Part shown: one piece after another, positions 1,388 to 63,048 of the stretch
Numbering within the stretch: the stretch's first letter is position 1
How the letters are laid out: each line of letters opens with the position of its first letter
Origin: Treponema sp. Marseille-Q3903
GTDB taxonomy: Bacteria > Spirochaetota > Spirochaetia > Treponematales > Treponemataceae
Assembly: GCF_014334335.1 (NCBI RefSeq)
Contig: NZ_JACSEU010000001.1
Location: 620,001-684,000, forward strand
DNA length: 64,000 nucleotides
Direction: 5' to 3'
Translations under genes and position numbers: made by a program
Notes under the pieces: model-generated
Databases searched by the model: none
Seen by the model: the letters and a program-made list of their open reading frames with translations, nothing else
Told to the model about the DNA's origin: nothing

Positions 1388-1903
1388 TTATGATTTTATT
1401 GTTTTTCCGTTTAATACGGCTTTGAGCAAAACTCCATTTTTATAAACAAGTTTAAGCGAAAAAAAAGGAGAGCGTTTTGCAATCATGTCAAGAAATATTT
1501 CATCACCTTCCCAGTGAGGCAATCTGTTCATTTTAGAAATTGGAATCCATTTCAAATCGCCTTCGGTGCATTGCTCTGATGTAAACATCTTTCCCGAGAA
1601 TTTATCAGTCCAAAAAATGTGCATAAATTCAGTGAAGACTTCTTCCGCACATCCTGAAACTGATGGAGAGCGAATATCGACAAATGTGACAATTCCACAG
1701 TAACGAAGAGATGTTTTTTCGACAAAAAGCCCAGTTTCTTCCTTGATTTCGCGGACTGCGCATTCTTCAGGACTTTCCGCATCTTCGAACTTTCCGCCTA
1801 TCCCAATCCATTTGTCGCGGTTGTAATCATTCTGTTTTTTTATGCGGTGAAGCATGAGATAAGAGGAATCTTTTTCTATGTAACAAAGTGTTGTGTTCAG
1901 CAT
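1388..1903 (-). CDS. NUDIX hydrolase (MutT-like)
   Basis: This 171-residue protein has a complete Nudix box (G-x5-E-x7-REIKEETGL) around residues 38-60, so it should hydrolyse a nucleoside diphosphate linked to another group. The closest guess is 8-oxo-dGTP diphosphatase, but the substrate cannot be read from sequence. I chose the ATG at 1903, which overlaps the end of purN by seven bases; a TTG four codons upstream is also open. The overlap suggests translational coupling with purN, giving an operon order purM-purN-nudix. Confidence 0.85.
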   Translation of the reverse strand: MLNTTLCYIEKDSSYLMLHRIKKQNDYNRDKWIGIGGKFEDAESPEECAVREIKEETGLFVEKTSLRYCGIVTFVDIRSPSVSGCAEEVFTEFMHIFWTDKFSGKMFTSEQCTEGDLKWIPISKMNRLPHWEGDEIFLDMIAKRSPFFSLKLVYKNGVLLKAVLNGKTIKS

Positions 1904-2529
1904 TGTTGTCTGCAAAGCAATAGCAATCCTTCTACAATAGCTTCGTGCTCTTTTGGCGCAATTCGAGCATACAATGAATCAGGAGTGTCGCCTGCCATCA
2001 CAGGGACTTTTTTCTGAATTAAAATTTTTCCACCGTCACATTCTCCGTTTACAAAATGAACAGTACAGCCGCTTTCTTTTTCGCCTGATTTTAAAACAGC
2101 TTCGTGAACGTGGTGTCCCCACATCCCAACTCCTCCGAATTTCGGCAAAAGGGCGGGGTGGAGATTTATGATTTTATTTTGATACGCTTTTAGAATATCG
2201 CCTGTAAGGACTGTAAGCCAACCTGCCTGAACGATAGCGTCGACATCATATTTTTTGCACAAGTCAAGAACTGCATCGCTTACGGAAAGGCGTTTTTCAT
2301 CCCTGCTAGCGGCTTGCGCGATTTCTTTCCCCATAACGGAATACGGACTTGTCACTGCACATGGAATATCTGCTTTTGCAGCGCGTTCCAAAGCAAACGC
2401 ATCTTTGTGATCGCTTATCACGATTACAATTTTGTAAGGGCATGAATCGCCTTCTTCTTTTTGATAGTCAATCAAAGCTTGAAGATTAGTCCCACCGCCG
2501 CTTACAAGCACTGCTGTTTTCAGTTTCAT
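1897..2529 (-). CDS. purN: phosphoribosylglycinamide formyltransferase
   Basis: PurN transfers a formyl group from 10-formyltetrahydrofolate to GAR in purine synthesis. The 210-residue length is typical. The N-terminus carries the phosphate-binding SGGGTNLQALID loop, and the catalytic pair is seen in NLHPALLPKF (Asn and His of the N-x-H-P motif). The Asp of the formyltransferase signature is in the HFVNGECDGGKI segment. It lies 18 bases downstream of purM, and its last codons overlap the NUDIX gene. Confidence 0.95.
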   Translation of the reverse strand: MKLKTAVLVSGGGTNLQALIDYQKEEGDSCPYKIVIVISDHKDAFALERAAKADIPCAVTSPYSVMGKEIAQAASRDEKRLSVSDAVLDLCKKYDVDAIVQAGWLTVLTGDILKAYQNKIINLHPALLPKFGGVGMWGHHVHEAVLKSGEKESGCTVHFVNGECDGGKILIQKKVPVMAGDTPDSLYARIAPKEHEAIVEGLLLLCRQQC

Positions 2530-2547: not shown

Positions 2548-3642
2548 TCAGTCTTCAAATAAGACAGAATCTTGTTGGCTTTTTACTTCGCCTTTACTAT
2601 AAGCGACGTATCCGATTTTGTATGCTTTCATATCAGGGCAGTAATCTTTGTGATATTTGTGAGCATTTGCATTGAACATTTCCAAAACAGCATCTGCATA
2701 TTTTGAGTTTACTGCAAGGAGCATTCCAATTCCCATGTTGAATGTATTGTAGATTGAATCTAAGTCGGCACCTCTTTTTATCAGTTCTCCGAATACAGGA
2801 GGAATATCCCAGCTGTCTCTCTTTATTACAGAAATCAACTGTTTTTTTCCTTCTTTTGCTTTTGGGTACATGCGAGGAATATTTTCGTAAAATCCGCCGC
2901 CTGTTATGTGAACCATTCCGTTGATCGCTTTACGGTATTTTCCCAAGACTTCCATGACAGGTTTTACGTAGATGCGCGTTGGAGTTAGGAGAATTTCTCC
3001 GATTGTTTTGCCAGTATCTTTTCCGTCAATTATGAAAGGTTCGTTTACATTTTTAACGAGTTTTCGCACAAGGCTGAATCCGTTTGAGTGAACTCCGTTA
3101 GATGAAAGCCCAATCAAAGTATCGTTTTCTTTGATGTTTTCGCCTGTAATCATCTCTTTTTTTTCTCCGATTCCGACTCCAAAACCTGCAAGATCGTATT
3201 TTCCATCATCATAGAAGTCAGGCATTTCGGCAGTTTCGCCGCCAAGAAGAGCACAGCCTGCATCGACACAACCGTCTGCAACACCTTTGACTAAGTCGGA
3301 AGCTATGTCAGCATCGAGTTTTCCGCATGCAACATAATCAAGAAAGAACGATGTTTGAACGCCGGAGCAAAGGATGTCGTTTACGCTCATCGCAACGCAG
3401 TCTATGCCGACAGTATCGTATTTTCTCATCTTGAACGCTATATCGAGTTTTGTCCCAACACCGTCCGTTCCGCTTACAATCACAGGATTTTTGTATCCTT
3501 TTGGCACTTCGAACATTCCGTTAAAGCTTCCCAAACCTGTTAAAAGTCCGGGAATTGCGGTCCTTTTTGCGTGTTCTTTATATTTGTTTACTGCGCGGTA
3601 ACCTTCTTCTACGTCTACTCCTGATTCTTTGTAAGATGCCAT
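2548..3642 (-). CDS. purM: phosphoribosylformylglycinamidine cyclo-ligase (AIR synthetase)
   Basis: PurM closes the imidazole ring to form AIR using ATP. The ATP-binding motif SGTDGVGTKLDIAF is near residue 60, and GGETAEMPDFY and the Gly-rich HITGGGFYENIPRM segments are present. At 364 residues it is slightly longer than the usual ~345. A GAGGAG ribosome site precedes the ATG. It sits between purE (upstream, past a 17-bp inverted repeat) and purN. Confidence 0.96.
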   Translation of the reverse strand: MASYKESGVDVEEGYRAVNKYKEHAKRTAIPGLLTGLGSFNGMFEVPKGYKNPVIVSGTDGVGTKLDIAFKMRKYDTVGIDCVAMSVNDILCSGVQTSFFLDYVACGKLDADIASDLVKGVADGCVDAGCALLGGETAEMPDFYDDGKYDLAGFGVGIGEKKEMITGENIKENDTLIGLSSNGVHSNGFSLVRKLVKNVNEPFIIDGKDTGKTIGEILLTPTRIYVKPVMEVLGKYRKAINGMVHITGGGFYENIPRMYPKAKEGKKQLISVIKRDSWDIPPVFGELIKRGADLDSIYNTFNMGIGMLLAVNSKYADAVLEMFNANAHKYHKDYCPDMKAYKIGYVAYSKGEVKSQQDSVLFED

Positions 3643-6253: not shown

Positions 6254-7315
6254 TTAAAGTTTAAGGTCGCCTTCTTTTATCCAGCCGATTTTTCTCAGGA
6301 AAAGCCCGAATATCCAGCTCAGTAAGCCGGGAAGAACAAAGCAGATAAGTGCAAGTCCGAGCCAATCAAAAGCGCTTGGATTTATTACACTGGCTCCATG
6401 TTCTATCGCGACTGCACTCGGTTCAAACCATCCTGTGACAATTCCAATCTGACCGACAAGTCCGCATGTTCCCATCCCTGAACTTACGGCTGTTCCATTC
6501 ATTTCCAACTTAAAGATGCATGTGGCAATTGGTCCTGTAATTATAGAAGCGAAAATAGGAGGAATCCAAACTTTCGGATTTTTGATTATGTTAGGCATTT
6601 GAAGCATGCTAGTTCCCAATCCCTGTGAAACAATTCCGCCAAATTTGTTTTCTCGGAAACTAAGCACTGCAAAGCCGACCATTTGGGCACAGCAGCCCGC
6701 AACGGCAGCACCGCCTGCAAGCCCGGTCAGACCGAATGCAGCACATATTGCGGCAGAACTTATCGGCAACGTAAGCACGATTCCGACAACTGAGGAAACG
6801 AGTATTCCCATCCAAAACGGATGAAGTTTTGTTGTCCAGATAAGGAACCTGCCGACCTCGTTTGCGGCAATACCGATATATTTTGCAGTCAGAAGAGTCA
6901 GGAGAGTTCCCGCGAGAATTGTAACAGCCGGCGTAACGATAATATCTACTTTTGTTTTTTTACTGACGGCGTTTCCAGCTTCTGCCGACACAATTGCGAT
7001 GATAAGGACGGCAAGCGGACCTCCGGCTCCTCCTGTCACATTTGCGGCAGCACCGACAGCCGCTAACGTGAACAAAACCAATGCGTCAGCTTTCAATGCA
7101 AAACCAATTCCGACAGCCATTGCCGCTCCAACGACATGTGCATTAGACGCAAAAGTGCCTGCATCAAATAAAAACTTAAAAAAAGGATTAGTTCCAAGCC
7201 TGAACAGCTGCTGCCCAAGCGTTTTAATAATTGTTCCTATCAATAAAGAAGCGAACAATCCCTGCGCCATCCCCGACATAGCGTCTATACAGTAACGTTT
7301 TATGTATTTTTTCAT
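6254..7315 (-). CDS. PTS_EIIC_2 family membrane transporter subunit
   Basis: This 353-residue polytopic protein matches the PTS EIIC type 2 family (Pfam PF13303 as I recall it). It has Gly/Ala-rich membrane helices, the N-terminal SGMAQGLFASLLIGTI segment, and a conserved GLGTSMLQMPNI loop near residue 240. It starts three bases after the uvrC stop and is probably co-transcribed with it. No IIA or IIB partner lies nearby, so the substrate and phosphorylation partner are unclear. Confidence 0.8.
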   Translation of the reverse strand: MKKYIKRYCIDAMSGMAQGLFASLLIGTIIKTLGQQLFRLGTNPFFKFLFDAGTFASNAHVVGAAMAVGIGFALKADALVLFTLAAVGAAANVTGGAGGPLAVLIIAIVSAEAGNAVSKKTKVDIIVTPAVTILAGTLLTLLTAKYIGIAANEVGRFLIWTTKLHPFWMGILVSSVVGIVLTLPISSAAICAAFGLTGLAGGAAVAGCCAQMVGFAVLSFRENKFGGIVSQGLGTSMLQMPNIIKNPKVWIPPIFASIITGPIATCIFKLEMNGTAVSSGMGTCGLVGQIGIVTGWFEPSAVAIEHGASVINPSAFDWLGLALICFVLPGLLSWIFGLFLRKIGWIKEGDLKL

Positions 7316-7318
7316 AAA

Positions 7319-9280
7319 TCAAACCTCCTTTGATTTTCCATATTTTGCTCTATTTTCTGCAACAGCAAGTGCCTGACTTGCCAAATCTGCGATATATTCC
7401 GCTTCTGCTGCTTTTTCCTTTGTTGTTCCTGCAATTCCAAGAGATTTTTTTTGAAGCTTTTTTTTCTCGTTTTGCTGTTCTAAAAGTTTTTTTGCTTGAA
7501 GTAAAATTGATGAAGCTTCATTTGCCCGAACGTGAATACATTGCGCGATTGCGCTCTCTTCGGCATTTGCGAGATTTTCGATTGTTGTGAACTGACGCTG
7601 CAAGAGCAACGAACGCTTTTTTCCGACGCCGGACAATTCAGTAAATATTGAGTCAGTGTTCTCTTTTGTGCGAAGTCGCTGATTCCTGCTCGTTGCAAAA
7701 CGGTGTGTTTCATCACGCACGCGCTGGAGCAGGCGCAGCGCATCGCTCCTTTTTGGAAGGCATATAGGCGTGCTGTTTCCCGGTAGATAGATTTCTTCAT
7801 CGCGCTTGGCAAGCCCTGCAATCGCAATATCAAGCCCTAGAGAATTTAGGACTTCCTCGACCGCATTTACTTGTCCGATTCCGCCGTCAATCAAAATCAA
7901 ATCAGGTAAATCTTCCTGCTCGTTTAATAGTCGTGTATAACGCCTGCTGACTGCCTCTTTCATGCTTGCAAAATCGTCTATCAAACCGTCTGTAGTTTTT
8001 AGACGGAAATATCTGTAATTTTTTTTGTCAGGGTTCCCGTTATAAAAGCTGATCAGCGACGCGACAGGAAATTTTCCACCGATGTGCGCAATATCAAAAC
8101 CTTCGATTCTTACAGGAAGCACGTCTAATCCAAGCTTCAGTTTAAGTTCTTCCATAGCCGGGGTATCGCCTCTGTCTCGCAAACGCCTGACGATATCTTC
8201 GTGTGCATTTTGCCTAGCCATTTGAATTGCGGCAACATCGCGAGGTGAATCTCCGGAATCGACAACTATTATATTTGAGTCCGATTTTTTTTCTTCTTTT
8301 AGCCAGCGAGAAATATGTTCATATTCTGTCGTCTGCGGAATGTACACAAACGGCGGTATTGTTTTTTCATCTTCATAGTAAACTGCAAGAAATTCACCAA
8401 TCAAATCATCGTCGTCGTTGAGCGATTCAGCACGGTAATTTTCGCGCCCGGTCAGTTTCCCGTTTCTGATTTTCAGCACAGTAAAACTTACAAGCTCTCC
8501 CTCAGAAAAATACGCTATGTAGTCGCGGTCATCGGAATCAAAAGTCTCTACTATATTTTGATTCTGTAAAACCATCAGCGCTTTGATTCCGTCGCGGAGT
8601 CTTGCGGCTTTTTCAAAATTGAGCTCTTTTGAGGCAGCTTTCATCTCTGTAGTCAGCTTTGCAACAGTTTCGTTGCCTTTCCCCTCAAGTAACCTTTTTA
8701 TTTCGCCGATGTAATCATTGTAGGACTGTTCAGATATTTTGTTACAACACGGTGCGCTACATTGTTTCATGTGATAGTACAGACACGGTGTATCGCGTTT
8801 TCTTAAAGTTCTGCAATGACGTATTGGATACAGTTTGAAAATTGTTTCAATAAATGTGTCGAGAGCGCATACATCAGGAAAGGGACCAAAGTAAGTCGAA
8901 CCGTCTTGCATGATTTGGCGTGTTTTAAAAACCTTTGGAAATCGTTCCTTTGTGATGCGTAAAACAGGATATGATTTACCGTCTTTTAGACAAATGTTGT
9001 ATCTTGGATTATATTTTTTAATTAGGTTGTTTTCCAGCAACAGAGCTTCGTACTCGTTTGTTGTTGTGATATATTCAATAAAATTGGCGTGGGAGATTAA
9101 GAGCCTTGTCTTTACGCTCTGTTTTCCTGAAAAGTAGGAACAGAGCCGATTTTTGAGGTTTTTAGCTTTTCCTACATAAATTACGGTGTTTTCGGCATTT
9201 CGCCACATGTACACACCGCTTGATAAAGGAGCTTTCAGAGCTGTTTCGTGCAATATTTCACGTGTAGTTTTGGCTGTCAT
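7319..9280 (-). CDS. uvrC: excinuclease ABC subunit C
   Basis: UvrC makes both incisions in nucleotide excision repair. The 653-residue protein has an N-terminal GIY-YIG nuclease domain (GVYMWR near 18, IYVGKAKNLKNRL near 33). A UVR domain follows (ELNFEKAARLRDGI, about 216). The RNase H-like domain has its acidic residues in IEGFDIAHIGG and LILIDGG. A helix-hairpin-helix with an extended Lys-rich tail closes the protein. Its start codon lies three bases from that of the divergent gene at 9284. Confidence 0.95.
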   Translation of the reverse strand: MTAKTTREILHETALKAPLSSGVYMWRNAENTVIYVGKAKNLKNRLCSYFSGKQSVKTRLLISHANFIEYITTTNEYEALLLENNLIKKYNPRYNICLKDGKSYPVLRITKERFPKVFKTRQIMQDGSTYFGPFPDVCALDTFIETIFKLYPIRHCRTLRKRDTPCLYYHMKQCSAPCCNKISEQSYNDYIGEIKRLLEGKGNETVAKLTTEMKAASKELNFEKAARLRDGIKALMVLQNQNIVETFDSDDRDYIAYFSEGELVSFTVLKIRNGKLTGRENYRAESLNDDDDLIGEFLAVYYEDEKTIPPFVYIPQTTEYEHISRWLKEEKKSDSNIIVVDSGDSPRDVAAIQMARQNAHEDIVRRLRDRGDTPAMEELKLKLGLDVLPVRIEGFDIAHIGGKFPVASLISFYNGNPDKKNYRYFRLKTTDGLIDDFASMKEAVSRRYTRLLNEQEDLPDLILIDGGIGQVNAVEEVLNSLGLDIAIAGLAKRDEEIYLPGNSTPICLPKRSDALRLLQRVRDETHRFATSRNQRLRTKENTDSIFTELSGVGKKRSLLLQRQFTTIENLANAEESAIAQCIHVRANEASSILLQAKKLLEQQNEKKKLQKKSLGIAGTTKEKAAEAEYIADLASQALAVAENRAKYGKSKEV

Positions 9281-54091: not shown

Positions 54092-54532
54092 TTACTGTTT
54101 CGTATAAGTAATAGAGGGATCCTCAAAAAACTTTGCAGTTGTCGCATTTTTATTTTGAATAGTGAATGTGTATACATGGAAACGTGCACCATATTGACCT
54201 TCAACTCCGTTAAAATTCTTTTTAACAGTATAAGAGCCTGAATAAATAGAGCTAGTAATACCTGCGGTAGTCATGGAATAATCGACAGTTTCTGATTTTG
54301 GAAACTTAACAGTATACTTTACTGTAGCACCGCCACCCATATCTTTCTCGGCTACCCATGTAGAACCTGCGAAAGGGTCGTTTTCATTTACTACAGAAGA
54401 ATTACCAGAGTTGCCGCCACCTCCGGAATTTCCACCGGAATTGCTAGGGTTGCTAGGATTGCTGCATGAGATAAAAGCAGATGCCAACAATACGGTAGCA
54501 ATTACTGCTAGAACGCTGAATAATTTTTTCAT
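54092..54532 (-). CDS. small surface lipoprotein with Gly/Ser linker
   Basis: The 146-residue protein has a lipoprotein signal (KKLFSVLAVIATVLLASAFISC, Cys near 23). A Ser/Asn/Pro/Gly linker of repeated NPSNP and GGG elements and a ~95-residue beta-rich domain follow (TWVAEKDMGGGATVKYTVKF). I start at the ATG with AGGAGG six bases upstream, not at the longer TTG frame that runs through the hairpins. It has an elaborate leader and a promoter with a C9 spacer. Function unknown. Confidence 0.8.
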   Translation of the reverse strand: MKKLFSVLAVIATVLLASAFISCSNPSNPSNSGGNSGGGGNSGNSSVVNENDPFAGSTWVAEKDMGGGATVKYTVKFPKSETVDYSMTTAGITSSIYSGSYTVKKNFNGVEGQYGARFHVYTFTIQNKNATTAKFFEDPSITYTKQ

Positions 54533-54565
54533 AAAATCCTCCTGTGATTTTATTATTTTTTTTTG

Positions 54566-54640
54566 TTGAGCGAAGGCGAGCGTAGCAAGACTTTGCTCAA
54601 AGGACTTTTTCAAGTCTTTTGAGTAGTGTACACTACTCAA
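54566..54640 (-). other. three-hairpin leader element L1
   Basis: Read on the minus strand: a perfect 22-bp palindrome (54619-54640, arms TTGAGTAGTGT), then GACTT-4-AAGTC (54603-54616), then a 35-base stem-loop with foot TTGAGC/GCTCAA (54566-54600) and an inner GCAA/TTGC stem. The feet of hairpins 1 and 3 share TTGAG/CTCAA. The predicted transcription start falls on the first base, so this would be the 5' end of the lipoprotein mRNA. Compare element L2 at 58706. Confidence 0.75.
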
Positions 54641-54645
54641 GGTTT

Positions 54646-54675
54646 AAAATAATTTTTTTAGGGGGGGGGAGTCAA
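54646..54675 (-). promoter_or_regulatory. promoter with C9/G9 homopolymer in the spacer
   Basis: Minus strand: TTGACT (54670-54675) and TATTTT (54646-54651) are 18 bases apart. The spacer starts with nine C (top-strand G9, 54661-54669), followed by TAAAAAAAT. Slippage by one base would give 17 bases, the best spacing. This is the classic layout for transcriptional phase variation. Confidence 0.6.
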
Positions 54676-54771
54676 CAGCAAGAGTTCCTCAATTAGCTAT
54701 TTTTTCCCAAACTCAGTTAGATCTTTAGTAATCTTTGTTGCGCTAATCTTTCTGATTAATAATATTGATTT

Positions 54772-55068
54772 TTACGCATATACGTAAGCCTTTATTTCTT
54801 CTAGCTGAGGTGCAAGTTCTATTTTTGCATTTCTTATATCAATATCATCTTGCAAAGACATAAAATATCCGTCCGACAAACTAAAAAACTTTGCAAGGCG
54901 TAAAGAAGTGTCTACTGTTATTTTCCTACGATTATGAAGAATGCCTTGAATGCGGGAAGTTGGAACATTTATTTCCTGAGCCAATTTATATGCAGAAATT
55001 CCAAGAGGAATAAGAAATTCTTCGTTAAGTATTTCTCCGATAGTAGGTGTTTCTATAAAATCCGACAT
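54772..55068 (-). CDS. higA: HigA-family antitoxin (XRE helix-turn-helix)
   Basis: The 98-residue protein matches HigA antitoxins: IGEILNEEFLIPLGISAYKLAQEINVPTSRIQGILHNRRKIT is the family core with the helix-turn-helix at about 20-60. The toxin gene that should precede it is only a 26-codon remnant. It may still repress its own promoter or bind toxins encoded elsewhere. Confidence 0.88.
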   Translation of the reverse strand: MSDFIETPTIGEILNEEFLIPLGISAYKLAQEINVPTSRIQGILHNRRKITVDTSLRLAKFFSLSDGYFMSLQDDIDIRNAKIELAPQLEEIKAYVYA

Positions 55069-55077
55069 AGTTTTCTC

Positions 55078-55158
55078 TTAGTGATAATCCACAATCTCTA
55101 CATCATAATAGTGTCCGTCTTTTTCTGTAAAACAGACGCGCCATTGGTCGTTTGGAGA
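55078..55158 (-). pseudogene. higB: C-terminal remnant of higB toxin
   Basis: The 26 codons directly upstream of higA read NDQWRVCFTEKDGHYYDVEI and end VDYH, the conserved C-terminus of HigB/RelE toxins. An in-frame stop at 55159-55161 precedes them, and the rest of the toxin is missing, replaced by the end of the MATE region. The nine-base gap to higA is as in intact higBA pairs. Confidence 0.8.
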
Positions 55159-55189
55159 TCACAAAGTGTACACAACTTCCTCCTTTACT

Positions 55190-56560
55190 TTACCGCGCTT
55201 GCTGCCATTTTGTAATCCCTGTTCGCAACAGACGGAATTCTCTCAAAAGTAAAATCAATACGGGGAGCGCGCTCAAAATTTCAATCATAAAGGTTCCGTA
55301 GTATACACCGCCAACACCGATAAAGGCAGGCAGAATAAGCATTACCGGAATATAAAACACGATTTGCTGTAAAAGACCGACTACGGAACTGATTTTCCCT
55401 TTGTTGACGGCAGGAAAAAAACCGAGCGCTAAAAAAACAAGGGGCATAACCGGTAAAAGAACCATATAAGTTCTAAAATGCATAATATTTTCTGTACTTA
55501 AATGGGGATTTTCCATCATCAAAGAAATAGCTGCTTGAGGGAAAATAAGCATTAAAATCCATAACGGAGCTATCAAAACAAGAGCGGCTGATAAAACGCG
55601 CTTAAATGTTGAAATCACACGCTCAGATTTATCCGCGCCGAAGTTTATACCGATGATAGGGCTGAGCGCAATCATAAAGCCTCCTATCGGCTGCAGTATA
55701 AATGAAAAGATGCGGGTAATGACGCCGTAAAAAGCAATGTCTTCTTGTGAGCCGTAGTGGTTTAAGACATTTAAAACCAAAAGCATTTGAATTGTTGCCA
55801 TAAACTGCATAATAAAGCTTGCCAATCCCATCGAAATAATCTTAGAGATAATTTCACCATCTATTCTGATGGTAAATACAGATGCAGGAGCATCGGGATT
55901 CTTTTTTGCAAAATAAACGGTACTGATGACTGCTTGTACCGCCATACCGATATTTGTTCCTATAGCGGCGCCTTTTATGCCGAAATGAAAAATCACCATG
56001 AGTATATAATTTGCGCACCCATTGACAATCAGGCTTATCCCCATAATCGCCGCCGCTGTTTTCATTTTTCCTTCGGAGCGGATAAGGTTGTTAAGGGCAA
56101 TGGCATATATCAAAATCGGAGTACTCCATAAAATAGTGCGGTAGTATTCACCTCCATATATGAGAGAATTACCCCTACCGCCCATTAAAAACAGCGTTTT
56201 TTCCGAAAAAAGAAAACCTAAAGTCATTACGATTACACTTATTATAAGTGTCAAAAAATTTACATTGCCTAGAATCTTTTTTTGAATATTTTTATCTTCC
56301 GCGCCGATTGCAATGCTTAACAGCGTTCCGGCTCCCGAGCCGATGAGAATACCTAAACCTATTATCGTTATGATTGGAGGCAGGGCTACCGAGATACCGG
56401 CAAAAGCTCCTTCTTCGGCAAAATGTCCGACAAAGATTCCGTCCAGCACATTGTTTGCTGCCAGTAAAATCATTGCAATAACGGCAGGCCATGAAAGATT
56501 AAAGATAACCTTCCACAAATTTCCGTTTAAAATAAATTCTTTTTGTTTTTCATTTTCCAT
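55190..56560 (-). CDS. MATE-family multidrug/Na+ antiporter
   Basis: The 456-residue protein has 12 membrane helices and two MATE halves (LSWPAVIAMILLAANNVLDGIFVG at the start; PIGGFMIALSPIIGINFGA near 290). It should export drugs or other cations coupled to sodium or protons. AAGGA precedes the ATG. A second copy lacking most of the gene lies at 57636. Its base composition is somewhat more G+C-rich than the core genes, which fits acquisition. Confidence 0.9.
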   Translation of the reverse strand: MENEKQKEFILNGNLWKVIFNLSWPAVIAMILLAANNVLDGIFVGHFAEEGAFAGISVALPPIITIIGLGILIGSGAGTLLSIAIGAEDKNIQKKILGNVNFLTLIISVIVMTLGFLFSEKTLFLMGGRGNSLIYGGEYYRTILWSTPILIYAIALNNLIRSEGKMKTAAAIMGISLIVNGCANYILMVIFHFGIKGAAIGTNIGMAVQAVISTVYFAKKNPDAPASVFTIRIDGEIISKIISMGLASFIMQFMATIQMLLVLNVLNHYGSQEDIAFYGVITRIFSFILQPIGGFMIALSPIIGINFGADKSERVISTFKRVLSAALVLIAPLWILMLIFPQAAISLMMENPHLSTENIMHFRTYMVLLPVMPLVFLALGFFPAVNKGKISSVVGLLQQIVFYIPVMLILPAFIGVGGVYYGTFMIEILSALPVLILLLREFRLLRTGITKWQQAR

Positions 56561-56793
56561 TGATTTGTTCCTTATATTTTTGTAAAAGCTTATTTACTCA
56601 ATTCATTTTGGGCGTCCCGGTTGGCAAAACACTGAAACAGCTATTTAACTAATATCGGCAATATACTAACGTATACCGTTTTTCTATCTTGTATAAAATG
56701 TACTATTTGTTGATACTCATCTTTGCGCTATTTCCAAAATAATCATAGTGCGCATCTTTTACTATTTAATTATAATGTTTTATAGCTTTATCT

Positions 56794-57135
56794 TCACGCC
56801 GGGGTTGTGTCAAGAGTTTTTAATTTTTTCGGTTTAGGTGTTGGCAGCCCATCGTACATGGAATTGAATAACCCTGTTAAATATTCTTTATTGTCAACAT
56901 CATCTACCAACAGCATTTCCTTTGCTCCATCATAGGGTAACTCATACCTTGCATTTGGCATATATGCTATTGCAGATTTAACAGGCTTAACTAAAAATCT
57001 ATCATCATAAATTCCACCAACAATTTTTCCACGATAATAAATTATATATTCACCCATCATTGCACGATAAGTAATATCTTCCAATCCTGATAACTGTTCT
57101 AAAATAAAATCTAAATATTCTTTACTTGAAGCCAT
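56794..57135 (-). CDS. TfoX/Sxy N-terminal domain protein
   Basis: The 113-residue protein is a stand-alone TfoX N-terminal domain (YLDFILEQLSGLEDITYRAMMGEYIIYYRGKIVGGIYDDRFLVKP). It lacks the C-terminal domain of the competence regulator, and such short forms are common in gene cassettes. GGGAAGAG precedes the ATG. The role is unknown. The 233 bases between this gene and the MATE gene contain no gene that I can support. Confidence 0.85.
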   Translation of the reverse strand: MASSKEYLDFILEQLSGLEDITYRAMMGEYIIYYRGKIVGGIYDDRFLVKPVKSAIAYMPNARYELPYDGAKEMLLVDDVDNKEYLTGLFNSMYDGLPTPKPKKLKTLDTTPA

Positions 57136-57154
57136 ACTCTTCCCTTATTTATCC

Positions 57155-57583
57155 TCAAAATTTCAACAATCCATTTTCATCAAATTGAAAATTTGGTCCC
57201 CATGAAACTTCCCAATAGTATCCATCTAAATCCGAAAAATATGCGTGATATCCACCCCAGAAAACTTCCTGCGGCTCTTTTACAATTTTTCCGCCTGCTT
57301 TTCTTACTAATTCAATTACACTATCCACATCTTCTTTATGTTCAACATTGTAAGCTAATGTAATTCCTGAAAATCCATTTCCTTTTGGTGGATTATTTTC
57401 ATCAATATCTTTTGCTAATTATTCCAAAGGAAATAGTTCAAACTTTGTTCCCGGAGTATCAAAAAAGCATACCGGCAGATTATTTTCTGTGCAATCAGTC
57501 TTATATCCTAAACCATCTCTATAAAACTTGATTGACCGTTCCATATCTTTAACACCTAAACAAATACAAGTAATCTTGTTCAT
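57155..57583 (-). pseudogene. VOC-family (glyoxalase fold) protein interrupted by one stop codon
   Basis: The 142-codon frame reads as a complete VOC protein: NKITCICLGVKDMERSIKFY at the start, FDTPGTKFELFPLE, then GITLAYNVEHKEDVDSVIEL and FSDLDGYYWEVSWGPNFQF. One TAA (57419-57421, codon 55) splits it. GGAG precedes the ATG. All other positions look intact, so the mutation is recent, or the codon is read through. Relatives include glyoxalase and antibiotic-binding proteins. Confidence 0.85.
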
Positions 57584-57635
57584 CGTTATCTCCTATATTA
57601 TTGCTAGTTACAACATCGTCTTTTCAAAGTTACCT

Positions 57636-57896
57636 CTAAAAACCTTGAGTTTTTGACTCTTTTTTGAGATATGACCGCATCTTGTTTTGTTCTTGCTGCC
57701 ATTTTGTAATCCCTGTTCGCAACAGACTGAATTCCATCAAAAGTAAAATCAATACGGGGAGAGCGCTCAAAATTTCAATCATAAAGTTTCCGTAGTACAC
57801 ACCTCCAACACCGATAAAGGCAGACCATGAAAGATAAAAGATAACCTTCCACAAGTTTCCGTTTAAAATAAATTCTTTTTGTTTTTCATTTTTCAT
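57636..57896 (-). pseudogene. internally deleted copy of the MATE gene
   Basis: Codons 1-25 match the N-terminus of the MATE gene at 56560 (KNEKQKEFILNGNLWKVIF). They then jump to its C-terminal part (SAFIGVGGVYYGNFMIEILS), losing about 370 codons. The junction lies in a short CTGCC match present at both ends of the lost segment in the intact copy. The reading frame stays open, giving an 86-residue product with two membrane helices. The tail runs past the MATE end for about 15 residues. Confidence 0.85.
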
Positions 57897-57992
57897 TGAT
57901 TTGCTCCGTCTCTCTTTGTCAGTAAGCCCGAACAATGCCCGAACAATGCCGTATTGAGAAAATCCGCCTCGTCAAACAGATAAAAACTATGG

Positions 57993-58535
57993 CTATATAC
58001 ACTTTGCAACGCACGCTTCGACATCTGCCATAGATGCCGGCGGCTCAAAACGCTCAACGACCTTCCCGTCGCGCGCTACAACGAATTTTGTAAAGTTCCA
58101 TTTGATGTCGGAGTTGTTTTTATAATCGGGATTGATTTTTTTAATATAGTCATGCAACGTTTGCGCCGTTTTACTTTCGCCGAAACCTTCAAATTTCTTT
58201 TGCGCTTTTAAATAGGAATACAACGGCAATTTGTTCGCACCGTTTACGTCGGACTTTTTCATTTGCGGGAATTTCGTGTTGTAATTGAGTGTACAGAATT
58301 CGCTGATTTCCCGGTCAGTGCCCGGAGCCTGCCCTCCGAATTGATTGCACGGCACATCGATTATTTCCAAACCCTTATCGTGATATGTTTCGTACAGCTG
58401 TTCAAGCTCTTTGTACTGAGGTGTAAAGCCGCATTTCGTTGCGGTATTTACAATCAATAACACTTTTCCTTTATAGTTCTTAAGCGGGACGTCATTCCCA
58501 TTCGCATCTTGAATCGAATAATCGTAAATTGACAT
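57993..58535 (-). CDS. glutathione peroxidase family protein (Cys type)
   Basis: The 180-residue thiol peroxidase has the active-site Cys in NTATKCGFTPQY near residue 36, the Gln of VPCNQFGGQAPG and the Trp in KWNFTKF. The position that is selenocysteine in some relatives is Cys here. It likely uses thioredoxin as reductant and protects against peroxides. GAGG precedes the ATG. The G+C content is higher than in the core genes. Confidence 0.93.
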   Translation of the reverse strand: MSIYDYSIQDANGNDVPLKNYKGKVLLIVNTATKCGFTPQYKELEQLYETYHDKGLEIIDVPCNQFGGQAPGTDREISEFCTLNYNTKFPQMKKSDVNGANKLPLYSYLKAQKKFEGFGESKTAQTLHDYIKKINPDYKNNSDIKWNFTKFVVARDGKVVERFEPPASMADVEACVAKCI

Positions 58536-58562
58536 ATTTTACCTCTTCGCGTATGATTATAA

Positions 58563-58685
58563 CACATCGGTAAAAAACTTTCAGTTATTGCCGATGAATG
58601 GGAGCGTATACAATTGCTCGAAAGTCAGGCGGAAAATCGATGTTTGTTTGAAGTCTGCTACGCAGGCAAGATTGGAAGCATCTAA
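58563..58685 (+). pseudogene. possible short C-terminal gene remnant
   Basis: A 40-codon open stretch without a start codon reads as natural protein (VIADEWERIQLLESQAENRC, ending AGKIGSI). It is too short to assign. It fills part of the 286-base gap between the glutathione peroxidase and the repeat lipoprotein. Confidence 0.25.
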
Positions 58686-58705
58686 ATGTATTTTTTTGCT
58701 GAAAA

Positions 58706-58807
58706 ATTACCCAGTATATACTGGGTAATAGACTTGAAAGAGTCTATTACAAGCCGAGCGAAGCGAGGCTTGTAATAGTAAAATTGCCGCAATGTAAAAA
58801 CATTGCG
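58706..58807 (+). other. multi-hairpin leader element L2
   Basis: A perfect 24-bp palindrome (58706-58729, foot ATTAC/GTAAT, centre AGTATATACT) is followed by AGACT-6-AGTCT (58730-58745). A 12-bp perfect stem CTATTACAAGCC/GGCTTGTAATAG follows, with loop GAGCGAAGCGA (58744-58778). A fourth stem CGCAATG/CATTGCG (58788-58807) ends just before the GGAAGG ribosome site of the lipoprotein gene. Order and spacing of the first three hairpins match L1. Confidence 0.75.
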
Positions 58808-58821
58808 AAAGGAAGGCCAAA

Positions 58822-59976
58822 ATGAAACAAAAAAAGATAGCTTCACTAATTGGTGCATTAATTTTAATAATTAGTGCAGTAGTGTTAATTACCGGTTGTT
58901 CTCAACCGAATAGTAACACTGATATTATAATCGAATTTGATGTTGCAAGTGTAAAATGTCAAAATAGAAGCTCATATCCATATACTGACGTAACGAGTGG
59001 AAGTCCAATACAAGAAAAAGATGTATTGTATTTTAAAGCGATTTTGCCTACAGGTAAGGTTGTCGAAAATTGGTATATCAATGATGTTAAACAGGAATAT
59101 CAAACTGGCATAGAGATGTTTTATACAGTAAAAGCAGCTGATATTGTAGGTAACAAGCTCAAAGTGAGTGTTATTACTAAAGACGCTGTACAAAGAACTG
59201 TCGAATTTGATTCTGCAAGTGTAAAATGCAAAAATACAAAATCATATACTAAGGTAACAACCGGAAGTCCAATACAAGAAAAAGATGAATTGCTGTTTGA
59301 AGCGATTTTGCCTACAGGTAAGGTTGTAGAGAATTGGTATATCAATGATGTTAAACAGGAATATGAAACTGATGTAAAGATGTTTTATAAAGTAAAGGCA
59401 TCTGACATTGTTGGTGGGAAGCTTAAAGTGAGTGTTATTACTAAAGACGCTGTACAAGGAACGATTGAATTTGATTCTGCAAGAGTAAAATGCAAAAATA
59501 CAAATTCATATACTAAGGTAACAACCGGAAGTCCAATACAAGAAAAAGATGAATTGCTGTTTGAAGCGGTTTTGCCTACGGGTAAGGTTGTAGAGAATTG
59601 GTATATCAATGATGTTAAACAGGAATATGAAACTGATGTAAAGATGTTTTATAAAGTAAAGGCATCTGACATTGTTGGTGGCAAGCTTAAAATCAGCGTT
59701 ATTACTAAAGACGCTGTACAAGGAACGATTGAATTTGATTCTGCAAGTGTAAAATGCAAAAATACAAATTCATATACTAAGGTAACAACCGGAAGTCCAA
59801 TACAAGAAAAAGATGAATTGCTGTTTGAAGCGGTTTTGCCTACGGGTAAAGTTGTAGAGAATTGGTATATCAATGATGTTAAACAGGAATATGAAACTGA
59901 TGTAAAGATGTTTTATAAAGTAAAGGCATCTGACATTGTCAGTGGCAAGCTTAAAATCAACGTTGTTTTTAAATAG
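58822..59976 (+). CDS. lipoprotein made of four ~88-residue tandem repeats
   Basis: The 384-residue protein has a lipoprotein signal (IASLIGALILIISAVVLITGC, Cys near 26). Four repeat units then start at about residues 37, 127, 215 and 303. Each unit has the pattern EFDSASVKCKN, TGSPIQEKDELLF, GKVVENWYINDVKQEY and FYKVKASDI. It resembles bacterial surface repeat domains (List_Bact/InlB-B type), but the family was not identified. Units 2-4 are almost identical. GGAAGG precedes the ATG. Confidence 0.85.
   Translation: MKQKKIASLIGALILIISAVVLITGCSQPNSNTDIIIEFDVASVKCQNRSSYPYTDVTSGSPIQEKDVLYFKAILPTGKVVENWYINDVKQEYQTGIEMFYTVKAADIVGNKLKVSVITKDAVQRTVEFDSASVKCKNTKSYTKVTTGSPIQEKDELLFEAILPTGKVVENWYINDVKQEYETDVKMFYKVKASDIVGGKLKVSVITKDAVQGTIEFDSARVKCKNTNSYTKVTTGSPIQEKDELLFEAVLPTGKVVENWYINDVKQEYETDVKMFYKVKASDIVGGKLKISVITKDAVQGTIEFDSASVKCKNTNSYTKVTTGSPIQEKDELLFEAVLPTGKVVENWYINDVKQEYETDVKMFYKVKASDIVSGKLKINVVFK
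58930..59973 (+). repeat. tandem coding repeat, 264-270 bp unit, four copies
   Basis: Units begin at 58930, 59200, 59464 and 59728. The spacing is 270, 264 and 264 bases, so frame is preserved. Unit 1 has diverged; units 2-4 differ at only a few positions. Copy number could change by recombination without breaking the gene. Confidence 0.9.
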
Positions 59977-60569: not shown

Positions 60570-60689
60570 TTGTACTATGGTGGAAAGATATGATTTTTTG
60601 TTTTGCAGAAGTTTAGGTTACAAATTATTGAGTTTTATAATATAGTGAAGAAGGGTCGAAAGGATGTTAGATGGACGTGCTGCCGCACG
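60570..60689 (+). repeat. left copy of the ~104-bp direct repeat flanking the intI module
   Basis: Positions 60570-60672 align almost without gaps with 62926-63029, with the strongest match in GAAGGGTCGAAA-GA-GTTAG. It ends in GTTAGAT (60666-60672), which fits the integron core site GTTRRRY. GGAC and a hairpin CGTGC-TGCC-GCACG (60676-60689) follow. Confidence 0.7.
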
Positions 60690-61757: not shown

Positions 61758-62864
61758 TTGAATAGTATTTATAGTGAGGGTTTTTGCCGTGCGGATTCCG
61801 ATTTTATCGAGAAAATTTGTGAAGGCGCTGATAGCGATCCTCATGATGCTATAGGCTTGAATACAGGAATGATTGAGGAAAGTAATCTGCCTACTGCACC
61901 GGATATTCAGGATATTTTAAGAAAACTGGATGCAGTGATTACTGCAAAACACTACAGCAAACGTACACGGGAAGCATACAGCTATTGGATAAGCCGCTTT
62001 ATACGAGAACATCAAAATAAAAATTTTAAAACATTTTCCGCTGCAGAGATAAATTCCTTTGTGAGCCGTCTTGCAATAAAAGAAAAGGTTGCCGCTTCAA
62101 GTCAAAATCAAGCCCTTGCCGCTCTTTTGTTTCTGTATAAAAACATATTAGGTTTAACTATACAAAGTCCCGAGAATATCATCCGTGCTAAAAAGTCTAA
62201 GAAGCTGCCTGCTGTACTGAGCCGTGAGGAAACGGCAAAGATATTCTCTTTGTTGCCTGAAAACGATTATGGTCTTTTTATCCGCTTGCTCTATGGAACG
62301 GGAATGAGGCTGATGGAAGGCTTGCAATTACGGGTACAAGATATTGATTTTGATAAAAATGAAATTACGGTACACTGCGGAAAGGGCGCAAAAGACCGTA
62401 AAACGGTGCTGCCGGTATCTCTAAAATTTCCGCTGCAAAAACATTTGGAAACAGTCCGCCGCATCCATGAGGCAGACTGCAAGGACGGTTTCGGCTCGGT
62501 ATCACTTCCCGCTGCCCTTGCGAAAAAATATCCCAATGCCGGTAAAACTTGGGCATGGCAGTGGGTGTTTCCCCAAGTACGCCGATGGCAAAATAATAAG
62601 ACAGGCGAGCAGGGGCGGTACCATATTGATCCTTCGGTTATTCAGCGCACCCTGCATGAAGCTGTTTTACGGTCGGGTATTCCGAAGCCGATCGGCTGCC
62701 ACACATTCCGCCACTCATTTGCAACACATCTACTGGAATCCGGTTACGATATCCGCACCATACAAGAGCTTCTTGGGCACAGCGATGTTTCAACCACTAT
62801 GGTTTACACCCACGTCCTCAACCGTGGTGGTCTCGGCGTTCAAAGCCCTATCGACCGAATGTGA
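61758..62864 (+). CDS. intI: integron-type tyrosine recombinase IntI
   Basis: The core is a complete IntI. It has the SAM-like N-domain (HYSKRTREAYSYWISRFIREH), catalytic Arg in GTGMRLMEG, Lys in HCGKGAKDR, HTFRHSFATHLLESG, LLGHSDVSTT and the Tyr in TMVYTHV. The IntI-specific insertion is present (YPNAGKTWAWQWVFPQ). Translation of this frame alone would need TTG 61758 or ATG 61869, neither with a good ribosome site. The open frame continues upstream into the extension at 61583. It reads toward the downstream genes, the inverted arrangement recalled for T. denticola. Confidence 0.93.
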   Translation: MNSIYSEGFCRADSDFIEKICEGADSDPHDAIGLNTGMIEESNLPTAPDIQDILRKLDAVITAKHYSKRTREAYSYWISRFIREHQNKNFKTFSAAEINSFVSRLAIKEKVAASSQNQALAALLFLYKNILGLTIQSPENIIRAKKSKKLPAVLSREETAKIFSLLPENDYGLFIRLLYGTGMRLMEGLQLRVQDIDFDKNEITVHCGKGAKDRKTVLPVSLKFPLQKHLETVRRIHEADCKDGFGSVSLPAALAKKYPNAGKTWAWQWVFPQVRRWQNNKTGEQGRYHIDPSVIQRTLHEAVLRSGIPKPIGCHTFRHSFATHLLESGYDIRTIQELLGHSDVSTTMVYTHVLNRGGLGVQSPIDRM

Positions 62865-62925: not shown

Positions 62926-63048
62926 TGCTATTATGGTAGAAAGATGAAGCTGCTTGGTGAGGTGTCAGTTTAGATTGAAAATGCGTAGTTTTTATGGTAT
63001 TATGAGGAAGGGTCGAAAAGAGGTTAGGCGGACGGCTCTACTAGAGCC
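62926..63048 (+). repeat. right copy of the ~104-bp direct repeat, attI candidate
   Basis: It lies in the 204-base gap after intI. It aligns with 60570-60672 and ends in GTTAGGC (63023-63029), a canonical integron core site. GGAC and a perfect hairpin GGCTCT-ACT-AGAGCC (63034-63048) follow. Position between intI and the next gene makes it the best attI candidate. No textbook attC was found in the next kilobase. Confidence 0.6.
62975..63003 (+). promoter_or_regulatory. promoter inside the attI candidate (Pc-like)
   Basis: TTGAAA (62975-62980), a 17-base spacer and TATTAT (62998-63003) point downstream. Transcription would begin near 63010, pass through the core site and hairpin, and drive the gene at 63069. 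Confidence 0.6.

Follow-up and report, generated by a model that had tools for sequence, protein, structure and literature searches.

Short folded sequences recur in bacterial genomes in several described forms, and the element considered here, ~77 bases arranged as three adjoining hairpins (P1, M and P3) upstream of gene starts in gut treponemes, resembles each of them in part. Two of its copies, L1 and L2, lie in a stretch of 64,000 nucleotides (nt) from Treponema sp. Marseille-Q3903 (contig NZ_JACSEU010000001.1, positions 620,001 to 684,000), referred to below as the window. Clade-specific structured 5′ leader motifs likewise consist of conserved hairpins with compensatory changes before the genes of one clade, whereas here the arms of two hairpins share sequence, G-U pairs are few and the genes are unrelated. 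Repetitive extragenic palindromic (REP) repeats, bacterial interspersed mosaic elements (BIMEs) and miniature inverted-repeat transposable elements (MITEs) are also short palindromes that lie dispersed and undergo duplication and deletion, but they lack the fixed orientation and start-codon distance of this element, which for its part has no association with a Y1 transposase. Integron attC sites are folded palindromes whose stems vary with pairing kept. Some copies of the element stand just after an attC-like motif, although such a motif lies within 130 nt upstream of only ~15 of 114 distinct copies, no AAC/GTT R-box layout is apparent by eye, and there is no association with an integrase. Hairpins remodelled by template switching share with the element multi-base changes on both sides of a stem and inversion of the spacer; in the portions covered here, the reports concerned (PMC8794818; PMC8604942) treat the stems of RNA genes and, in yeast genes, inverted repeats taken singly, whereas in the present case three overlapping palindromes would homogenise together.

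The reading preferred here, held tentatively at a probability of about 0.42, is that of a clade-specific cis-regulatory 5′ leader situated at the gene start, mostly transcribed and recognised by way of its loops, whose arms have been homogenised, probably by template switching. The copies keep one P1-M-P3 order, one orientation to the gene and one placement relative to the start codon; their stems covary, their loops are conserved, their arms are linked in sequence, and they are restricted to one clade. Among the features by which structured cis-regulatory leaders are recognised, compensatory pairs and position before the start codon are present and a greater tolerance of G-U than of A-C is lacking. 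As a gut-treponeme leader family that is absent from Rfam and often precedes export-like genes, the element could give a first handle on the control of surface and secreted proteins, some of them encoded in integron cassettes. No description of it was found among the titles and abstract openings searched, a literature that mostly leaves subscription papers outside, and its novelty is unproven; a study of Treponema integrons (PMC3607928) contains none of the terms "hairpin", "palindrom-" or "leader" in its main text as available.

Anatomy and placement of the element

Copies were sought with two covariance models, R1, which represents P1 and M and was run on 200 genomes of the genus, and R2, which was built from 70 copies and run across the phylum (344 genomes) and the family (274 genomes). 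An earlier note on the window had described two multi-hairpin leaders with the same order relative to their genes, and both are present in the sequence:

54618..54641, minus strand: L1 P1, a 24-nt palindrome CTTGAGTAGTGTACACTACTCAAA (65.8 bits with R1)
54602..54617, minus strand: L1 M, a hairpin with a TTGAAA loop, AGACTTGAAAAAGTCC
54565..54601, minus strand: L1 P3, a larger hairpin with an imperfect stem and the loop TTGCTACGCTC in the usual orientation
54646..54675, minus strand: promoter-like TTGACT-18-TATTTT directly upstream of L1, weak (9/12)
54092..54532, minus strand: lipoprotein-like gene of 146 amino acids behind L1, start codon 32 nt past P3
58529..58557, plus strand: promoter-like TTGACA-17-TATGAT (11/12), ~150 nt upstream of L2
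58706..58729, plus strand: L2 P1, a 24-nt palindrome ATTACCCAGTATATACTGGGTAAT (59.9 bits with R1)
58730..58745, plus strand: L2 M, a hairpin AGACTTGAAAGAGTCT
58746..58776, plus strand: L2 P3, a larger hairpin with the inverted loop GAGCGAAGCGA and the foot ATTAC/GTAAT
58725..58750, plus strand: alternative pairing in L2, identified by eye, in which the P1 3′ foot, M and the P3 5′ foot make one longer hairpin GTAATAGACTTGAAAGAGTCTATTAC
58822..59976, plus strand: lipoprotein-like gene of 384 amino acids behind L2, repeat-containing, start codon 45 nt past P3

Each leader folds better than all 200 of its dinucleotide shuffles (z -4.68 for L1 and -9.20 for L2), and in both a ribosome-binding site and a lipoprotein-like start follow P3. 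The claim that the stems stay perfect holds for the feet, while the predicted fold of P3 in L1 has interior mismatches. A GAGCGAAG-type P3 loop had similarly been attributed to both leaders; it stands on the leader strand in L2 and on the opposite strand in L1, the P3 loop of L2 being the reverse complement of that in L1 and most other copies.

The order seen in the window is fixed throughout the family. All 89 distinct copies in the anatomy table, from which truncated matches and those under 43.3 bits were left out, run from an A-run through P1 (a 24-nt palindrome with a AGTGTACACT-like core), M and P3 to the ribosome-binding site; the models used to find copies favour this layout, so that variants are under-counted. 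Conservation has a sharp onset in the A-run, 5 nt ahead of P1, where positions -2 to -4 are 80-86% A, and there is none further upstream (71 copies, those with a TCCAAC leader being excluded). The loop of M is TTGANA with a preference for TTGA(A/C)A, scored in rows that were placed by their TTG; the constancy of this TTG rests instead on 74 aligned rows, in all of which it is invariant, although the model that retrieved these rows favours it. The P3 loop is of the GCTCG type. The sequence 3′ of P3 is A-rich, and the sense-strand U-tract that would mark an intrinsic terminator or attenuator is absent there. When five copies were folded, each was predicted to form three hairpins. Some relatives carry P1 alone, and in L155 it stands directly before the ribosome-binding site.

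Placement before gene starts, as claimed for L1 and L2, is also a property of the family, and the distance is consistent. The start of an open reading frame lies behind 84 of the 89 copies, the exceptions being L060, L099, L131, L089 and L144 (three of them at contig ends), and the interval from P3 to the start codon, as picked by script, is 14-40 nt in 69 of the 84, with a median of 28.5 nt. The downstream proteins are unrelated, as had been stated, since 36 Pfam families are spread over 65 proteins and none occurs in more than three. The association with lipoproteins likewise stands: by simple, crude rules, a lipobox was called in 28 of 76 genes behind the element against 14 of 128 others, and an export-like start in 48 of 76 against 35 of 128 (Fisher p 8e-7).

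Covariation, shared feet and clade

Within P1 and M, standard pairs fill 96.0% of the cells of 70 distinct rows, compared with 75.3% in shuffles. Many compensatory pairs are found, in line with the earlier note, 13 of the 14 P1/M pairs having changed on both sides; in P1 columns 5 and 6 there are 46 two-sided changes each, and neither one-sided changes nor unpaired cells occur. The extended form of M, composed of the P1 3′ foot, M itself and the P3 5′ foot, is paired in 92.3% of cells against 74.6% in shuffles. For every one of these covariation measures, 0 of 500 shuffles reached the observed value.

The shared foot of P1 and P3, with arms that change together, extends from the two original leaders to the family. 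When the 6-nt feet of the P1 3′ arm and the P3 5′ arm are compared in 75 distinct copies, 50 of 450 letters are unlike, while 2000 permutations gave a mean of 154 and a minimum of 127, a contrast that is inflated by kinship among copies. For 19 distinct feet the mismatches number 34 of 133, and none of 5000 permutations gave fewer than 61, but the finder used here demanded a paired extended M and the TTG and thereby favoured shared feet; the 92.3% and 75-copy tests are fairer. With one copy taken for each of the 19, P1 and P3 have the same foot in 15 and all four arms are alike in 7. Because P1 and P3 share a foot in so many foot types, the family is a natural setting in which to ask whether selection or template switching shapes perfect hairpins. 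In 48 of 81 copies the same 4-nt foot stands in all four arms, this being the common TTTG in 41, and unusual feet recur in both hairpins: TAAGCC (L213, from another genus), ACAGT (L154), TCAGCC (L227) and TCCGCC (L231). The P1-P3 foot link is therefore strong yet incomplete. The 81-copy count leaves out L060, L131, L089, L081, L112, L140 and L141, and the 75-copy permutation omits, besides these seven, L106, L075, L083 and one L095 copy.

A search of treponeme genomes with a covariance model, as the earlier note had suggested, reveals a large family of dispersed copies, of which over a hundred distinct ones are known. In the genus, R1 matches 77 of the 200 genomes when weak matches are included (E<=0.05) and 56 at E<=2e-5; these 56, read from the R1 table, are the element genomes of the comparisons below. 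Across the phylum, R2 matches 21 of 344 genomes at E<=0.001, which belong to 2 of 153 genera; within the family, at E<=0.02 and with weak matches included, it matches 89 of 274, belonging to 4 of 20 genera. Outside the genus, the inspected matches L213, L220 and L221 are all full elements (those in G076, G024, G067 and G068 being uninspected). The genome of the window holds five clear copies by R1, confirmed with R2, and thus three besides L1 and L2; one of these, the third copy, was recovered by a one-mismatch search, and the count sets aside three weaker, uninspected matches (E<=0.05). When one genome from each of 84,980 species was scanned for the P1-M pattern, 53 stretches were obtained, all titled Treponema or Spirochaet- and including T. 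bryantii, T. saccharophilum, T. porcinum, T. berlinense and T. zioleckii. Among plasmids, a single record matched, from T. saccharophilum. Rfam gave nothing at gathering score in the window between 50000 and 64000 and, for nine loci at E<=1, a tRNA elsewhere and two matches far under the curated score. One of these two, to mir-8186 (E 0.9, 23.3 of 80 bits), overlaps L1 on the other strand and looks like chance.

Competing explanations

If the element is a transcribed leader, it would form the 5′ end of the mRNA in most copies, its three folded hairpins would lie against the 30S footprint, and a host factor would recognise the hairpin loops and adjust mRNA stability or translation. Its overlapping palindromes (P1, M with both feet, and P3) would be repeatedly repaired from one another by template switching during replication, a process that would make multi-base changes on both sides of a stem and invert hairpin loops. 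Template switching yields multi-base compensatory changes (PMC8794818) and homogenises the arms and inverts the spacers of inverted repeats (PMC8604942), to the extent of the portions covered here. Marks of this kind occur in the family. Close orthologous loci differ by a both-sided change in P1, and a 12-nt deletion occurs inside M; the two-sided change could alternatively be due to conversion from a neighbouring copy. P1-M is duplicated in tandem at L075, L083 and L095. Inspection by eye shows an inverted P3 loop in L2, L107 and probably L254, and in L220 (G039, another genus) the M loop is inverted near 924-967 on the minus strand, with TTAGTCAA in place of the usual TTGACTAA; this copy was missed by the copy finder and inspected separately.

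A number of observations weigh against such a leader. The self-complementarity of P1 extends right through its centre, although a hairpin loop would not require this. The stems contain 14 G-T and 24 A-C mismatches in 2610 pairs (copies in which no P3 was found are excluded here and from the 19-foot counts), and P1 columns 5-7 have no G-U in 210 cells. Fourteen G-T among 38 gives p 8e-9 if four-fifths of the mismatches were G-U, an assumed proportion for RNA, and p 0.14 for an even split; a tRNA control (4 G-U in 65 pairs of 3 tRNAs) is too small. Since an RNA helix should tolerate G-U, yet G-T is no commoner than A-C, the plain RNA reading is weakened: either the element works as DNA, or the repair of RNA hairpins outpaces the build-up of G-U intermediates. 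The suggestion of a leader RNA is thus favoured by placement and not by the base-pair statistics. The inverted loops of L2, L107 and L220 further suggest that the strand matters little, and 28 of the 76 downstream genes are not export-like.

The upstream sequences are no more favourable. Sigma-70 promoter matches are not in excess there (52 against 55.4 in shuffles), and a promoter at a fixed upstream place was discarded because it is not enriched. A promoter score at p<0.05 was reached by 8.1% of element copies and 13.5% of control genes (Mann-Whitney p 0.03, by a weak method). The copy on the T. saccharophilum plasmid, annotated ~55 nt from a divergent gene, has a TATAAT ~26 nt before P1 and no promoter according to a scanning tool. 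In some copies an upstream promoter would have little space, as a terminator-like hairpin is near L157 and L232, L105 has 52 nt, and divergent reading frames are near L222 (54 nt), L165 (60 nt) and L103 (105 nt). Terminator-like hairpins, called by script within 200 nt upstream of P1, lie at these distances from it:

L080: 124 nt
L098: 39 nt
L099: 25 nt (no open reading frame behind the copy)
L105: 52 nt
L113: -1 nt
L143: 60 nt
L145: 146 nt
L157: -2 nt
L232: 28 nt

These points bear on a serious, if unlikely, alternative in which the element is a promoter or operator module of the DNA, in which the P1 dyad would either be the binding site of a symmetric regulator or extrude to form a cruciform. 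M would carry a -35-like TTGACA, P3 would overlap the start region and transcription would begin near the end of P3, leaving a short, uniform 5′ untranslated region; such a portable module would suit promoterless integron cassettes. A module of this type accords with the lack of preference for G-U in the stems, with the palindromic P1 and its symmetric centre changes (GTAC to TATA in L2, L107 and L145), with the preference for TTGA(A/C)A, which is near the -35 hexamer, and with the short, uniform distance to the start codon, as well as with the terminator-like hairpins or divergent frames directly upstream of some copies and the absence of a promoter excess. However, a -35 function of TTGANA paired with a -10 in P3 was rejected, as no -10-like hexamer is present at 16-18 nt. 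The stems of M and P3 vary freely with pairing kept, which is unusual for a plain operator, the inverted M loop of L220 would turn the -35-like hexamer round, and several copies have a credible promoter upstream, promoter-like sites being seen before L1, L2, L068, L077, L123 and L130.

It is unlikely that the element is instead a mobile palindromic repeat (REP- or MITE-like) with no regulatory role, which inserts near gene starts and owes its placement to insertion preference or tolerance. The same element does occur before unrelated genes, with a sharp 5′ boundary and with copies in integron cassettes, and several contigs end within ~50 nt of a copy, as contigs do at repeats (G245:C39, G245:C137, G143:C29 and G122:C54). 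In addition, one element-bearing MatE-like gene (24.4 bits, just below the Pfam cut-off) has seven homologues that, by eye, lack the element in the 200 nt upstream; the element has therefore been gained or lost independently of the gene. Against mobility of this kind, orientation and spacing to the start codon are nearly fixed, the P1-M pattern has zero exact matches in viral contigs, and a single 171-nt copy used as query found no match in phages. Neither an integron nor a Y1-transposase origin survived comparison, as co-occurrence is at expectation: among the 56 element genomes, 15 have an integron integrase over the cut-off (16.3 expected) and 17 have the Y1 (HUH) transposase PF01797 (17.4 expected), with 196 genomes in this comparison against 200 for the element and other transposase families not tested. 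The genome of the window itself is without PF01797. No clean empty site was seen in the loci examined, where target duplications were not searched for. What is left of the mobile unit proposed in the earlier note is the spread of the element to new genes.

Selection for a conformational switch, with arms kept identical because both the P1/M/P3 fold and an extended-M or four-way-junction fold are required, is improbable. The exchange of partners between arms had been foreseen, and the exchanged pairing is indeed formed, being kept across distinct feet; in L125 the first letter of the foot matches the exchanged partners only. A functional role for the exchange does not follow, since the sequence after P3 is A-rich and neither fold gives a terminator or generally hides the ribosome-binding site. 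An outer stem against the ribosome-binding site was rejected on the same ground, being seen in some cassette copies and not in general: the pairing of a copy with its own rather than swapped partners has a mean rank of 0.52 in 54 copies without an attC-like motif and 0.28 in 14 with one. Moreover, the folded copies give three hairpins, and the four feet are identical in only 48 of the 81 copies counted. Template switching predicts the same identity of arms and explains their homogenisation, so that shared arms need no switch; nor, because it makes such changes, need an exchangeable fold be regulatory. A more elaborate proposal, which we rate as a long shot, is that shared feet are selected because they let P1, M, P3 and an outer stem form a four-way junction that branch-migrates freely, whether in RNA or in extruded DNA, and that a host protein reads the junction position and thereby sets the expression of exported-protein genes. 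To our knowledge, junction-position reading is not known as a regulatory principle elsewhere.

That the hairpins are unrelated look-alikes arising by chance or as ordinary terminators is scarcely conceivable, for although the A-run before P1 is a T-run after P1 on the antisense strand, this is refuted by the covariation, the restriction to one clade and the specific loops.

Integron cassettes and neighbouring loci

Judging from the attC-like motifs, the leader rides in some integron cassettes. The window encodes an integron integrase at 61758-62864 on the plus strand (TIGR02249, 486.7 bits), and the attC/attI-like motifs GTTAGAT-GGACG and GTTAGGC-GGACG occur in similar contexts at ~60610-60677 and 62967-63034 (repeat D5). 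Beyond the window, at genome position 697058, the leader copy L088 follows an attC-like motif. At L031, two similar attC-like sites (6820-6948 and 7907-8042; 62 nt at 94% and 29 nt at 90% identity) flank a PfkB kinase gene, a locus that adjoins the third leader copy and is ~1.4 Mb distant from the integrase on the contig. In L124 (~3282-3361, minus strand) the ribosome-binding region of the leader runs into an attC-like GTTAGG end, and the leader alone seems to form a cassette end there. A protein of 49-50 amino acids beginning MAKTTVRPGN is found behind the leader in several of L113, L115, L116 and L132; in L115 its small gene is apparently missing, and the leader stands directly before the next gene.

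At L007, a divergent gene for a repressor-like helix-turn-helix protein (HTH_3; 1633-1914, plus strand) adjoins operator-like short repeats at ~1550-1630, which surround a promoter-like TTGATA-17-TATAAT leading into the leader. In the window, the gene behind L2 (58822-59976, plus strand) contains 264-nt units repeated in tandem (repeat D1). The divergent leaders L1 and L2 enclose a MatE efflux-type gene (55190-56560, minus strand; 108.2 bits), and a remnant at 57636-57935 (minus strand), also between them, repeats both ends of this nearby gene in pieces that are 95% and 91% identical.

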